From the NCBI GenBank assembly GCA_002069525.1, contig MWBJ01000003.1, positions 1-39,874 of the forward strand: 39,874 bases of DNA, written 5' to 3'. The notes under the pieces were generated by a model. It was not told the origin of the DNA, ran no database searches, and was given only the letters and a program-made list of their open reading frames with translations. Numbering within the stretch: position 1 is the first letter of the stretch; each line of letters starts with the position of its first letter. The stretch is from Parcubacteria group bacterium ADurb.Bin305 (lineage in GTDB: Bacteria; Patescibacteriota; Minisyncoccia; UBA6257). A program made the position numbers and the translations under genes. Shown here piece after piece: positions 35,038 to 39,874 of the stretch.

Positions 35038-36717
35038 ATGTTTAATTTCAAAAAAGAAATAGGTTTGGTTTTTATTATTAGTTTTACTTTATTAGTTAGT
35101 CCTTGTTTGGTTTCAGCTGACTGGTCTCAAACAGCTACTTTTTTTACTGAACCAGTTTATGATTTATATGACCGAAGTCAAGTTGACGCGGTTTTAGTGC
35201 AAACGACTAATAAATTTTATTTTTATGCTGATAAATATTGGTATGATAATCTGACAGATAAGAATAAGCTCTCTAATCAAATTTATACTTTAGCCACTAA
35301 TTTTGAATATAAAACTTATCCGGTTTTAACCTCTTTATTAGGCAGCGAAGATAATCCCGGCCTAGATAATGATTCGCGTTTAGTGGTAGTGCTTTTGCCC
35401 TTAAAAAGCAATTACGGAGGTTATTTGCGGACTGCTGATAGATATAGTCGGCAAGATTACCCGGCTAGTAATGAAGGCCAAGTTATTTTCTTAAATGGAG
35501 ATTCTTTAAGGCAAAGACCGATTGATCTTTTGGATTATCAATTAGCTCATGAATTTACGCATTTAATTGTTTTGCATCAAAAACCAGAAGCTAATATTTG
35601 GCTGCAAGAGCTTTATGCAGAGTTGAGTCCCACTCTGCTTCAGTTAAGTTATAATGACAATTTGCTTAAAAAAAGAGCTCAAGATTTGCTTTATAGCCCA
35701 GAGATTAATTTAGTATCTTGGAATAATTCAGATAAGGATTATGGCAAAGTTAAACTGTTTGGGCAATATCTTTATGAGCAATACGGCAGTCGTATTTTCT
35801 CTGAGGCTTTAAAAGATCCTAGTGGCGACGGAGTGGTATCGTTTAATCGCAGTTTATTTAACCATCAAGCCGGCATTTCGTTCGCTGACATTTTTTTAGA
35901 TTGGTTGATAACCAATGTTATTAACGATTGTTCGGTTTCTGATAAATATTGTTATAAAACTAACACCTTGAGCGATTTTTCTATAATTCCTTACACTTAT
36001 TACTTGCCGCCGCAAGCCCAAAGTTCTCTTTCTGTCACTGATTCTTTGTCAGCTTGGACTGGTAAATGGCAAAAAATTATTGGCGGCTCTGGTTCCTTAA
36101 AATTAAAGTTTAGTCTTCCGCAAGCCTCGCCTGATTTTAAAATTGCTTACCTCATAGAAGATGTTGAGGGCAAAAAGACTGTTAATTTTTTGAATTTTGC
36201 CAACACCAAAACCCAAGAAGTTTATTTTCAAGATATGGGAACTAAAAATGTGGCGGTTTATTTTATTCCAGTTTTAGGCGCGGCTAACGAAGAAAATCAA
36301 AATTATTATTATTCTTGGGAAGCAGCGAATATTACGAGTCCCGAAGCTGAGGATGAATTAATTGCTTCTTTATTGGCTAAAATCGAAGAATTGAGACAGG
36401 AAGTTAATAGGTTGCAGACGCAATTAGCTTGGCGTCAAAATAATTCTTATAACGCTTCTTCTATGTTGGCTAATTCTTCAAGTCAAACTTGTGGTAAGTT
36501 TTTACGCGATCTATATTATGGCCTGCGTTCCCCTGAAGTTCAATGCTTGCAGCAATTTTTGTCAGGATTAGATGGTATTTATCCCGAGAAATTGATTACC
36601 GGCTATTATGGACCCTTGACGCAAGCTGCAGTAAAACGATATCAAGCCAGCAAAGGAATTATAGCCACTGGTTATTTCGGACCGCTGACCCGAGCGCAAG
36701 CGAATCAAGAATTATAA
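35038..36717 (+). CDS. Secreted zinc metalloprotease with wall-binding C-terminus
   Basis: A 559-aa exported protein. The signal peptide ends near residue 29 (LVSPCLVSA). The catalytic part holds LAHEFTHLIVLHQKPEANIW followed by LQELYAE: zinc ligands His171 and His175, catalytic Glu172, and Glu191 or Glu195 as third ligand, a gluzincin-type arrangement. A coiled coil follows (ELRQEVNRLQTQLA near 450), then a C-terminal peptidoglycan-binding domain at about 483-559 with LITGYYGPLTQAAVKRYQ and GYFGPLTRAQA, closely similar in pattern to the domain of the preceding surface protein. Likely a wall-attached protease acting on surface or environmental proteins. Exact peptidase family not fixed. Confidence 0.78.
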   Translation: MFNFKKEIGLVFIISFTLLVSPCLVSADWSQTATFFTEPVYDLYDRSQVDAVLVQTTNKFYFYADKYWYDNLTDKNKLSNQIYTLATNFEYKTYPVLTSLLGSEDNPGLDNDSRLVVVLLPLKSNYGGYLRTADRYSRQDYPASNEGQVIFLNGDSLRQRPIDLLDYQLAHEFTHLIVLHQKPEANIWLQELYAELSPTLLQLSYNDNLLKKRAQDLLYSPEINLVSWNNSDKDYGKVKLFGQYLYEQYGSRIFSEALKDPSGDGVVSFNRSLFNHQAGISFADIFLDWLITNVINDCSVSDKYCYKTNTLSDFSIIPYTYYLPPQAQSSLSVTDSLSAWTGKWQKIIGGSGSLKLKFSLPQASPDFKIAYLIEDVEGKKTVNFLNFANTKTQEVYFQDMGTKNVAVYFIPVLGAANEENQNYYYSWEAANITSPEAEDELIASLLAKIEELRQEVNRLQTQLAWRQNNSYNASSMLANSSSQTCGKFLRDLYYGLRSPEVQCLQQFLSGLDGIYPEKLITGYYGPLTQAAVKRYQASKGIIATGYFGPLTRAQANQEL

Positions 36718-36775
36718 CAAATGATAAATAATTAATTCCTAATTTCTAATAAAATTTCTAATCTACCCCACCATT

Positions 36776-37180
36776 ATGTCTCAAGTCAAAAGTCAAAATT
36801 CAAAAGTCAAAAATGAAGGTCAAAATTATAAAAATAATTTAAAAAATAGATGTTATCAATTTAGTTTAAAGGTTATTGCTTTAACTGATAATCTACCCAA
36901 TAAAAGAAGCGCTTGGGTTATCACTAATCAATTAATAAGAGCTGCCACTTCTATTGGAGCTAATCTGATCGAAGCCAGAGCCTCAAGTTCTCGTCTGGAA
37001 TTCAAGAAATTCTATGAAATTTCCCTTAAAAGCGCTAATGAAACAAAGTATTGGTTATTTCTCTTAAAGGATGCCAAATTAGTTGACGATAAAATAATTC
37101 TTCCTTTCTTAGCTGAAATTACAGAAATATCCAATATGCTCGGAGCTAGTGTCATAAAACTTAAAAACAAACACTTTTAA
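36776..37180 (+). CDS. Four-helix-bundle protein (23S rRNA IVS/S23 family)
   Basis: A 134-aa protein of the family encoded in 23S rRNA intervening sequences and as free genes in many CPR and Bacteroidetes genomes. Diagnostic text: FSLKVIALTDNLPNKRSAWV, NQLIRAATSIGANLIEARAS, FKKFYEISLKSANETKYWLF. Helices run from about 25 to 130. The fold is shared with Avd, the accessory protein of diversity-generating retroelements, but no reverse transcriptase is present. The first 17 residues (MSQVKSQNSKVKNEGQN) are the readout of a DNA repeat, AGTCAAA units, and the same unit in reverse orientation follows the stop. Function unknown; nucleic-acid binding is plausible. Confidence 0.88.
   Translation: MSQVKSQNSKVKNEGQNYKNNLKNRCYQFSLKVIALTDNLPNKRSAWVITNQLIRAATSIGANLIEARASSSRLEFKKFYEISLKSANETKYWLFLLKDAKLVDDKIILPFLAEITEISNMLGASVIKLKNKHF
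36783..36827. repeat. Left inverted copy of the 7-nt repeat
   Basis: Units AGTCAAA, AGTCAAA, ATTCAAA, AGTCAAA, then a degenerate AATGAAGGTCAAA. These are reverse complements of the TTTGACT units that make the 486-bp tract on the other side of the gene. The left copy lies inside the coding sequence. Confidence 0.8.
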
Positions 37181-37666
37181 TTTTGACTTTTGACTTTTAA
37201 CTTTAACTTTTGACTTTTGTCTTTTGGGTTTTAACTTTAAATTTTGACTTTTAACTTTTAACTTTAAATTTTAACTTTTAACTTTAAATTTTGACTTTTG
37301 ACTTTTTAATTTTAATTTTGACTTTTGACTTTTGACTTTTGACTTTAAATTTTAACTTTTAACTTTAAATTTTAACTTTTAACTTTTGACTTTTGTCTTT
37401 TGGGTTTTAACTTTACCTTTTGCCTTTTGACTTTTGGATTCTGACTTTAAATTTTAACTTTTAACTTTAAATTTTGACTTTTGACTTTTGACTTTTGATT
37501 TTAACTTTTGGGTTTTGCCTTTGACTTTTAACTTTTAACTTTAAATTTTGACTTTTAACTTTTAACTTTAAATTTTAACTTTTGACTTTTGAATTTTAAT
37601 TTTAATTTTGACTTTTGACTTTTTAATTTTAATTTTAATTTTGACTTTTGACTTTTGACTTTTGAC
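37181..37666. repeat. 486-bp tract of about 72 heptanucleotide-like units
   Basis: By eye it divides into about 72 units of 6-7 bases with no gene. Main types are TTTTGAC (about 23), TTTTAAC (about 18) and the 6-mers TTTAAA and TTTTAA; rarer TTTTGTC, TTTTGGG, TTTTGCC and TTTTGAT. Higher order exists: TTTTGAC-TTTTGTC-TTTTGGG followed by TTTTAAC occurs twice (about 37209 and 37387), and the block of two TTTTAAC between two TTTAAA recurs several times. It begins at the first base after the four-helix-bundle stop codon and ends just before the -10 box of the next gene. It is not a CRISPR. Confidence 0.9.
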
Positions 37667-37667
37667 T

Positions 37668-37673
37668 TATAAT
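37668..37673 (+). promoter_or_regulatory. TATAAT box at the repeat edge
   Basis: A perfect TATAAT (37668-37673) directly after the last repeat unit. The expected start site falls at or within a base or two of the ATG at 37679, suggesting a leaderless message. TTGACT elements in the tract lie 14 or 21 bases upstream, neither being the optimal 17. Confidence 0.5.
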
Positions 37674-37678
37674 AACCT

Positions 37679-39874
37679 ATGTCTAATCTAAAATCTCTTT
37701 TATTTTATTTAGCTCTCGCTTGTCTTTTTACTCCTTTTTTGTTTCAAGCCACGACTTATTTTCCCTTTATTACCTTAAAAACTACTGTTTTTAGGTTAAT
37801 AGTGGAGATAATGTTGATAGTTTGGTTAATTCGGTTAAGTCTAAGCCAGCAACCAACTTGTCAGTTAACGCCGCTTATCAAAAATGTTTTAATTTACGGT
37901 TTGGTGATTTTTATTTCCGCTTTATTAGGGGCTAATTTTTGGTGGAGTTTTTTTTCTAGCAATGAAAGAATGGAAGGTATTTTTGGCGTTTGGCATTTTA
38001 TTTTATTTTTCTTAATTTTAGCTACTACTTTTGATTGGTCAGAGCTTAAAAAACTCTTAAAATATCAAGTTTATATTAGTTTGGCTTATTCTGTGGTAGC
38101 TATTTTAGCATATGCCGGCTTAGGCCCGGTTAAGGCCCAATTTACCTCTAATCGTTTAGCCGGCTATACTGGCAATCCTTCTTATTTTGCCGCCTATATG
38201 ATTTTTAATGCTTTCTTGGGTTTATATTTCTATTTTGAGCAGTATCTTTTTGATCATAAACTTTATAATCATTGGTTATTAGTTTTCTGTGGGGAAAGCT
38301 TATTAATCTTTTTAAGCGGCACTAGAGGGGGAATGTTAGGGTATTTGGCGGCTTTATTGGTTGTCTTTTTAGGTATTTTAATTTTGGCTAAGCAGAAAGA
38401 ATATCATAATCTTAGAAAATCAATTTTACTTATTAGCTTAGCCCTAATAATAGGAATAGTCAGCGTTTTTGCCTTAAAAGATACTCCTTTGGTTAAAAAT
38501 AATTTTGCTTTAGAGAGATTTACTTCTATTTCACTTAAAGACCCAACTGCTATGGGCCGGTTGATATCGTTTAAAATTGCTTGGCAGAGTTTCCGGCAAA
38601 AACCTTTACTGGGTTGGGGTCCTGAAAATTATGAGATGGCTTATTTGCGTAATTTTGATAAACGAATATTAGATTACCTGCCCGAGGATCTTTATTTTGA
38701 TAGGGTGCATAATAAACCCATGGAAGTTTTGGCTACTACCGGCCTATTTGGTTTTCTTTCCTATATGTCGATTTTTGTTTTAGCGTTTTATATTTTATGG
38801 AAGAATTATAAGCATTATCCAGCAGCACTTTTGCCTAATTTAGCTTTGAGCGGCATGCTTTTAGGTTATTTTACTCAAAATATTTTTTTGTTTGATATTC
38901 ACGAGACCTATTTAATGTTTTTTCTAACTTTAGCTTATCTTGTATCTTTAGAAAAACAGGAAACAACTAAATCTTTAGTTCAGGTGGCTCCAATTAAGGT
39001 TCTGGGGGGAATTTCTTTAATAATTCTTCTACCTTGTATAGGCTTTAGTTGTATTTTTTGGATAATTAAGCCCTATCGTCTTAGTCGGAATATTTTTTAT
39101 ACTAATTATTATCTGGCTTTGGGTAAAGGCAAAGAAGCTTTAGCAGTGCTCCAAAAGAATATTAAAGATCCAGAGCCTTTAGCAGGAGATATTGTGGCCG
39201 GTTTTAGCAAAGGTCATCAGTCGGCTCGAAGTTTATCTCCTGAAGATGATAAAATTTTAATTAATGAAATAGTTCAATTTATAAATCGCCTTCCGCCGGA
39301 TAAGCTTTGGTTCTATCAAGCCAAGGTAGCTGCTATTGATTTGCAATCTATTGCCGGCCAATGGCAGCCAGAATTATTAGTGAAAGCGCAGAGAGGGGCC
39401 GAAGAATTGGTCAAGGCGAGTCCCTATTTGCCAGATTCTCATTTGCTTTTAGCTAAAACTTATACTTTAAATAATAAATTTGATGAGGCCTTAAAAGCAG
39501 CTCAAAGGGGGTTAGAGCTAAACCCGCGCTCAGCTTCAGCGCATTATATCCTCTTTGTGGCTTATGGCAATCAAGGCAAAATAGCAGAAGCTGATAAACA
39601 CTTGGTATCAGCCGCTAAGCTTCATTATCCATTTAATAAAGTAGACGTGATCTTAAGGGCGGTTAATTTGCTGGTAGCCGAAAAAGATTATAAAACCATA
39701 GCTGAATTATATTTGTCAGCTATAAATTTAGAGCCTAATAATGTTCAACTTTATATTTCTTTAGCCGCTACTTATGGGAAGTTGCAGGATAAAGAAAAAG
39801 CTATTTTTTACGCCAAGAAAGCCTTAGAAATTAATCCGGCATTGCCCAACCTTAAACAAGCAGTTGATGATTTT
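37679..39874 (+). CDS. O-antigen ligase/polymerase-like protein with TPR tail (partial)
   Basis: An open frame of 732 codons that runs off the end of the window. The first ~430 residues contain about ten membrane helices with Wzy/WaaL family landmarks: LAGYTGNPSYFAAYM, SGTRGGMLGYLAALL, the loop FKIAWQSFRQKPLLGWGPEN and DRVHNKPMEVLATTGLFGFL. From about residue 560 TPR-like helices follow (NKFDEALKAAQRGLELNPRS, EKAIFYAKKALEINPALPNL). Family members join or ligate surface polysaccharide, or glycosylate pilins, outside the membrane; which applies is unknown. The start was chosen at the first ATG after the repeat tract. Confidence 0.85.
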   Translation, partial: MSNLKSLLFYLALACLFTPFLFQATTYFPFITLKTTVFRLIVEIMLIVWLIRLSLSQQPTCQLTPLIKNVLIYGLVIFISALLGANFWWSFFSSNERMEGIFGVWHFILFFLILATTFDWSELKKLLKYQVYISLAYSVVAILAYAGLGPVKAQFTSNRLAGYTGNPSYFAAYMIFNAFLGLYFYFEQYLFDHKLYNHWLLVFCGESLLIFLSGTRGGMLGYLAALLVVFLGILILAKQKEYHNLRKSILLISLALIIGIVSVFALKDTPLVKNNFALERFTSISLKDPTAMGRLISFKIAWQSFRQKPLLGWGPENYEMAYLRNFDKRILDYLPEDLYFDRVHNKPMEVLATTGLFGFLSYMSIFVLAFYILWKNYKHYPAALLPNLALSGMLLGYFTQNIFLFDIHETYLMFFLTLAYLVSLEKQETTKSLVQVAPIKVLGGISLIILLPCIGFSCIFWIIKPYRLSRNIFYTNYYLALGKGKEALAVLQKNIKDPEPLAGDIVAGFSKGHQSARSLSPEDDKILINEIVQFINRLPPDKLWFYQAKVAAIDLQSIAGQWQPELLVKAQRGAEELVKASPYLPDSHLLLAKTYTLNNKFDEALKAAQRGLELNPRSASAHYILFVAYGNQGKIAEADKHLVSAAKLHYPFNKVDVILRAVNLLVAEKDYKTIAELYLSAINLEPNNVQLYISLAATYGKLQDKEKAIFYAKKALEINPALPNLKQAVDDF

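Follow-up and report, generated by a model that had tools for sequence, protein, structure and literature searches.

The heptamer arrays around a four-helix-bundle gene

We have examined a stretch of 39,874 nucleotides from Parcubacteria group bacterium ADurb.Bin305 (assembly GCA_002069525.1, contig MWBJ01000003.1, positions 1 to 39,874, referred to here as the window), near the right end of which lies a small gene bracketed by arrays of a short repeat. The gene occupies positions 36776–37180 on the forward strand and encodes a 134-residue protein of the 23S_rRNA_IVP/S23 four-helix-bundle (4HB) family, matching PF05635 with 86.6 bits (cut-off 33.8) and TIGR02436 with 95 bits (cut-off 24), with the domain at 36839–37144. 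Codons 3–17 are formed by an array of AGTCAAA-type heptamers (the upstream arm, 36783–36827, forward strand), with exact units at 36784, 36791 and 36805 (MSQVKSQNSKVKNEGQN), such that the N-terminus of the protein is translated repeat. The downstream arm, at 37181–37668 and in the reverse orientation, begins at the first base after the TAA stop codon and consists of about 487 bp of the reverse-complement unit TTTGACT and its variants; a tandem repeat search with TRF finds 73.6 copies of a 7-bp unit at 79% match. The initial annotation had described the gene as lying between inverted repeats of the same 7-mer, and this observation is confirmed, with the small correction that the arms are degenerate and not pure repeat, the downstream tract being a mixture of TTTGACT, TTTAACT, TTTAAAT and TTTTGGG-type units.

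The AGTCAAA heptamer occurs 43 times in the window against 8.9 expected (the largest count in 100 shuffles was 17), and most of the excess is in this locus; in the rest of the genome the array is almost absent, with only weak matches at position 9097 of contig C8 and position 55356 of contig C1. The upstream arm pairs better with its own downstream arm (score 59, rank 1 of 131 candidate partners) than with the downstream arms of 130 other 4HB loci. Only the 4HB open reading frame lies between the arms, with no recognisable recombinase or transposase.

The element is flanked on the left by a host gene with a C-terminal peptidoglycan-binding domain (35038–36717, forward strand; PF01471, 45.8 bits), and on the right by a Wzy_C O-antigen ligase gene with TPRs (37679–39874, forward strand, running to the end of the window; PF04932, 69.6 bits), relatives of which are present in 38 of 41 genomes. 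Between the peptidoglycan-binding gene and the upstream arm there is a short degenerate array (36735–36765, forward strand; TAATTCC TAATTTC TAATAAAATTTCTAATC), to which we return below.

Inverted arrays at other 4HB genes

To determine whether this arrangement is an oddity we took the strongest PF05635 matches in about 430 Patescibacteria genomes (genomes are denoted here by G and loci by L numbers). TRF shows arrays of period 7, 8 or 9 immediately on both sides of most of these genes, with the downstream unit the reverse complement of the upstream one, and with a different unit at each locus. In 60 loci the inverted score of the two arms of the same locus averages 33.2, against 17.0 for mismatched pairs, and the highest mean in 2000 permutations was 20.2; scores in the direct orientation show no excess. 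The best lag is 7 in 49 upstream and 45 downstream arms, and where it is 8 or 9 the two arms tend to agree. With 131 loci (120 from these genomes, the window's own, and 10 named plasmid loci) the mean is 36.2 against 17.0, and 109 loci (83%) exceed the 95th percentile; in about 17% of loci the arm pairing is weak or absent.

Outside this phylum we examined plasmid loci from cyanobacteria, Chloroflexota, Bacteroidota and Spirochaetota, together with 80 GTDB loci of the window's own 4HB subfamily. Of 77 usable loci, from Cyanobacteria, Acidobacteria, Verrucomicrobia, Planctomycetota, Bacteroidota, Chlorobi, Chloroflexi and Nitrospirae, about 82% have paired arms, with a mean score of 43.4 against 17.4 for 1534 shifted windows, and the pattern overall spans about ten phyla. 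Both arms have period 7 in 41/60 and 60/77 loci, while 8/8 is seen in 5 and 9/9 in 2. The unit is in general peculiar to each element, although Sphaerospermopsis NIES-73 (L259) has the same unit as the window. Phages hold only two distant matches, and a search of viral contigs gave 13 loci, which are not included in these counts. The arrays do not have a fixed length; in particular, the possibility of five units per array, matching a protein pentamer, is not supported, as the distributions of array length show no peak at five.

The initial annotation had proposed that its reading would fail if most family members lacked such repeats, or if the tracts were as common beside unrelated genes. The first clearly does not hold, and the second does not hold on average. 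Lag-7 coverage is 0.03–0.18 within 100 nt of the gene and below 0.01 beyond 300 nt, and is roughly 20–40 times higher next to 4HB genes than beyond 500 nt; lags 6 and 9 show little or no enrichment, and lag 8 rises slightly in Patescibacteria only. Chance or low-complexity AT slippage is therefore rejected, and an assembly artefact is rejected because complete circular plasmids and a single-contig genome show the pattern. Avd genes of diversity-generating retroelements (DGRs) in the same genomes, the nearest paralogues, have no such arms (0 of 28). The window's own genome carries a DGR on contig C4 (31049–32126) with a reverse transcriptase (RT) followed by Avd and TR/VR-like sequence, and its Avd gene has no heptamer arms. 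The RT of this DGR is the only one of the genome, and the 4HB gene of the window is not adjacent to an RT. Small GIY-YIG genes, such as L364, L374 and L360 in Patescibacteria, may be flanked by unique inverted repeats (such as AAAAGGTGCGGGGTTGA), but these contain no heptamers, and they possibly represent a separate mobile element family.

The specificity is less complete inside some genomes. In the complete genome G177 the known 4HB genes are among the top-scoring of 538 open reading frames for inverted arms, but the same genome has about 250 heptamer arrays in 95 islands, about 2.5% of the genome, most of them not next to a 4HB gene and belonging to some 15 multi-copy unit families with a recurring block order (ATCGGAC - AAGTAGA - TAATCTA - AGTTTTG); perhaps these are composite non-autonomous derivatives. 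Heptamer arrays are also common away from 4HB genes in cyanobacterial plasmids, with 34 places in pAfl69. Arrays are therefore not exclusive to 4HB genes, and it is the inverted pair around the gene that is their hallmark. One could suppose that the arrays belong to the host genome, either as slippage-prone intergenic repeats or old STRR arrays, and that 4HB genes simply landed in or between them; however, the arms are inverted about the gene and match only each other, they are inherited with the protein, and the empty sites described below lack the arrays, and we regard this explanation as very unlikely.

Occupied and empty sites

Comparison with genomes of the same family shows that the window's site is variably occupied. 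The peptidoglycan-binding and Wzy_C genes are directly adjacent, about 13–95 bp apart, in G004, G005, G007, G008 and G009 (with an orthologue of the peptidoglycan-binding gene directly preceding the Wzy_C gene in the last four). In G010 an orthologous 4HB gene (56% identical) with the same AAAAGTC unit lies between them, whereas in G003 and G006 a different 4HB gene, 31% identical to the window's and with a different unit, lies at the same place (L384 and L387 respectively), so that either the site is hit repeatedly or elements replace each other. The short array at 36735–36765 resembles a TTTCTAATGTCAAATAAAATTTCTAAT array upstream of the 4HB gene in G006 and its G003 counterpart, and is probably a remnant of the upstream arm of an element of that type; this reading, and the nested insertion or replacement that it suggests, are inferences. 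The long downstream array is private to the window, as the G010 element has only a short arm there.

Empty sites are also seen in another Patescibacteria genus and in Nostoc plasmids. At position 713544 of G177 the gene and both arms are present, while G154 and G283 lack all of it; the G177 site at 279194 is occupied in G154 with another unit and is empty in G283. The Nostoc plasmid pC052_A has an element that is absent from the 95%-identical segment of pC052_D and from four other plasmids, with about 230 bp of the target gene missing in the occupied copy. Similarly, cas1 and cas2 are adjacent in Nostoc UHCC 0870 but split by an element in Nostoc TCL26-01 and Anabaena cylindrica (L139 and L143, on cyanobacterial plasmids); IVP genes have been reported in cas loci (PMC3936711), and this association may reflect insertion rather than function. 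No target-site duplication is evident by eye in the G177, Nostoc and G171 junctions, although divergence limits this comparison.

Copies of an element share gene and arms but not flanks. In genome G171, L072 and L164 have 91% identical proteins and the same arms but unrelated flanks, and over all pairs upstream-arm similarity appears only when the proteins are alike (1–2% of pairs below 45% identity, but all seven pairs above 80%), so that arms are inherited with the gene. The junction at G177 713544 (ATGAACT) had suggested that the unit might be copied from the target site, but we discarded this because close copies at different sites keep the same unit. Of two 86% identical elements in G089 (L040 and L186), one has a downstream arm of another unit (GGATTAG), suggesting arm switching by recombination or nested insertion. 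Close pairs have dN/dS of 0.01–0.16, indicating purifying selection on the protein, although dS is saturated in some of them. One G177 element (contig C1, 774208–774547; L400) lies in the V1 hairpin region of the 16S rRNA gene with AATTAACA-type 8-mer arms, tying these elements to rRNA intervening sequences (IVSs). The presence or absence of elements at conserved sites, their insertion in 16S rRNA and between cas1 and cas2, and the different units at the same site make it most improbable that the arms are ordinary regulatory hairpins or terminators of a vertically inherited gene, even though they can pair around the open reading frame in predicted RNA.

Relationship to known elements and a model for movement

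We conclude that the locus is an insertion of a mobile element of the IVS/S23 kind, comprising one gene for a 4HB protein between two inverted arrays of a short repeat, usually a heptamer, that belong to the element and travel with it; the unit drifts from element to element but the two arms stay matched in sequence and in period. We place the probability of this explanation as a whole at roughly 0.75, being highly confident that this is a mobile element bounded by its arrays, and much less so about how it moves. The architecture and its generality, the matching of the arms, the copying of gene plus both arms to new places, the empty sites, the insertion in rRNA and the selection on the protein are all directly supported by the comparisons above, whereas the manner of movement, recognition of the repeat or its RNA by the protein, and propagation of the repeat by it are inferred; no excision or transposition was observed and no intermediate is known. 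The interpretation offered in the initial annotation, a non-autonomous mobile or repeat-propagating element whose protein recognises the repeat or its RNA, is thus partly supported: mobility with the repeat forming the ends is borne out, and the kinship it noted with Avd is real even though the DGR Avd genes tested lack the arrays, but 'non-autonomous' is a guess.

The closest described elements are the IVSs of bacterial rRNA genes with an S23/IVP open reading frame, as in Leptospira and Coxiella. These share the protein family, a size of about 0.4 kb and inverted complementary ends around the open reading frame, as does the window's element (arm score 59, with 39 predicted arm-arm pairs in RNA); the Coxiella IVS has 2–3 tandem heptamers (GACAGAT) before the open reading frame, varying between strains (PMC4990558), and IVP open reading frames are known in rRNA insertions of CPR bacteria (PMC11270868). 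However, the window's element and nearly all others examined lie outside rRNA genes, between protein genes; both ends are arrays, and the unit differs per element. Elements with terminal inverted repeats such as MITEs and IS elements are likewise discrete insertions bounded by inverted repeats, but here the ends are tandem arrays with no family-wide sequence, there is no transposase, and no target duplication is evident by eye in the junctions compared. Avd is a homologous four-helix-bundle protein, but its genes sit beside an RT and a variable repeat. Finally, the heptanucleotide STRR repeats of cyanobacteria, TAACTGA of Beggiatoaceae and GGGAATC of Xanthomonas and Nostoc are heptamer arrays of the same kind, to which the degenerate tandem 7-mers of the window also conform. 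The 33-nt arm of a Nostoc 4HB element occurs exactly in plasmids of Tolypothrix PCC 7601 and others, and Xanthomonas campestris has both GGGAATC inverted pairs (PMC4692102) and a 4HB protein, XCC0516. Those repeats were described without a link to any gene and their origin was left open (PMC4679880, PMC4692102); among the open-licence papers that we searched, heptamers are described in single cases or as unexplained repeats, and none links them to the 4HB family. The present findings extend rRNA IVSs to genome-wide mobile elements, freed from rRNA and with array ends, in about ten phyla.

As to mechanism, we tentatively propose that, because the arms are complementary, the single strand (RNA, or DNA at the fork) folds into a hairpin with the open reading frame in the loop. 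The basic 4HB protein, which has no recombinase motif and two solved relatives (2RLD and 2GSC, the latter being XCC0516) that are each deposited with five chains, would bind the array or stem and protect or deliver it, with joining to the target done by host enzymes, since the element has no recombinase and its genomes often lack RT and Y1 transposase. In this view slippage would change array length, and template switching within the hairpin would copy unit variants from one arm to the other. Matched arms with element-specific units are what these two processes would give; in the pair L170/L195 the same variant is seen in both arms of one element. RNA folding gives only weak support for the hairpin, as predicted arm pairing is only modestly above the Avd control, with 62% of Avd control loci also giving 12 or more arm pairs.

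We considered whether enzymes acting in trans could move the element. In one alternative the array-hairpin RNA with bound 4HB protein is reverse-transcribed by an RT, much as Avd serves the DGR RT, and the cDNA is inserted. The family is homologous to Avd (a weak NF033474 match; PMC10053308), rRNA IVS RNA is excised as a hairpin by RNase III (PMC4990558), and the window's genome has a DGR RT with Avd; but an RT is found in only 43 of 89 4HB genomes against 21 of 61 without 4HB genes (P=0.10), although draft genomes may hide some, and this route seems unlikely. In another, a single-strand (Y1/HUH-type) transposase moves the element as a MITE-like passenger whose arm hairpins are recognised. Y1 genes do co-occur with 4HB genes (34/89 against 5/61, odds ratio 6.9, P=2e-5), so a trans-acting Y1 enzyme is not excluded; however, genome size and openness confound the correlation, 55 of 89 4HB genomes show no Y1 gene, including the window's own, and the arms have no fixed sequence that a transposase could read, and we consider this at least as unlikely. 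Neither enzyme was found in 31 of the 89 genomes, and strict dependence on either is not supported.

It is possible, although we would not rate it as more likely than not, that these elements represent a new class of bacterial mobile element in which a single non-catalytic, probably pentameric RNA/DNA-binding protein and inverted arrays of a self-renewing short repeat are enough, with host replication and repair enzymes, to copy the element to new sites; the heptanucleotide STRR repeats and S23-containing rRNA IVSs would then be its solitary and rRNA-resident forms. Such a recombinase-free mechanism, if right, would be categorically new. The findings give a function-like context to one of the commonest uncharacterised small protein families in Patescibacteria and cyanobacteria, and provide a candidate owner for the long-unexplained heptanucleotide repeats of bacteria. 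The mobility of IVSs, a hypothesis raised in 1993 (as cited in PMC4990558), also becomes testable because recent copies and empty sites are now in hand.

We also note that several 4HB elements (L035, L043, L048, L051, L052, L059 and L072) abut type IV prepilin-like genes, with array sequence reading into the leader peptide; the cleaved leader may tolerate insertion.
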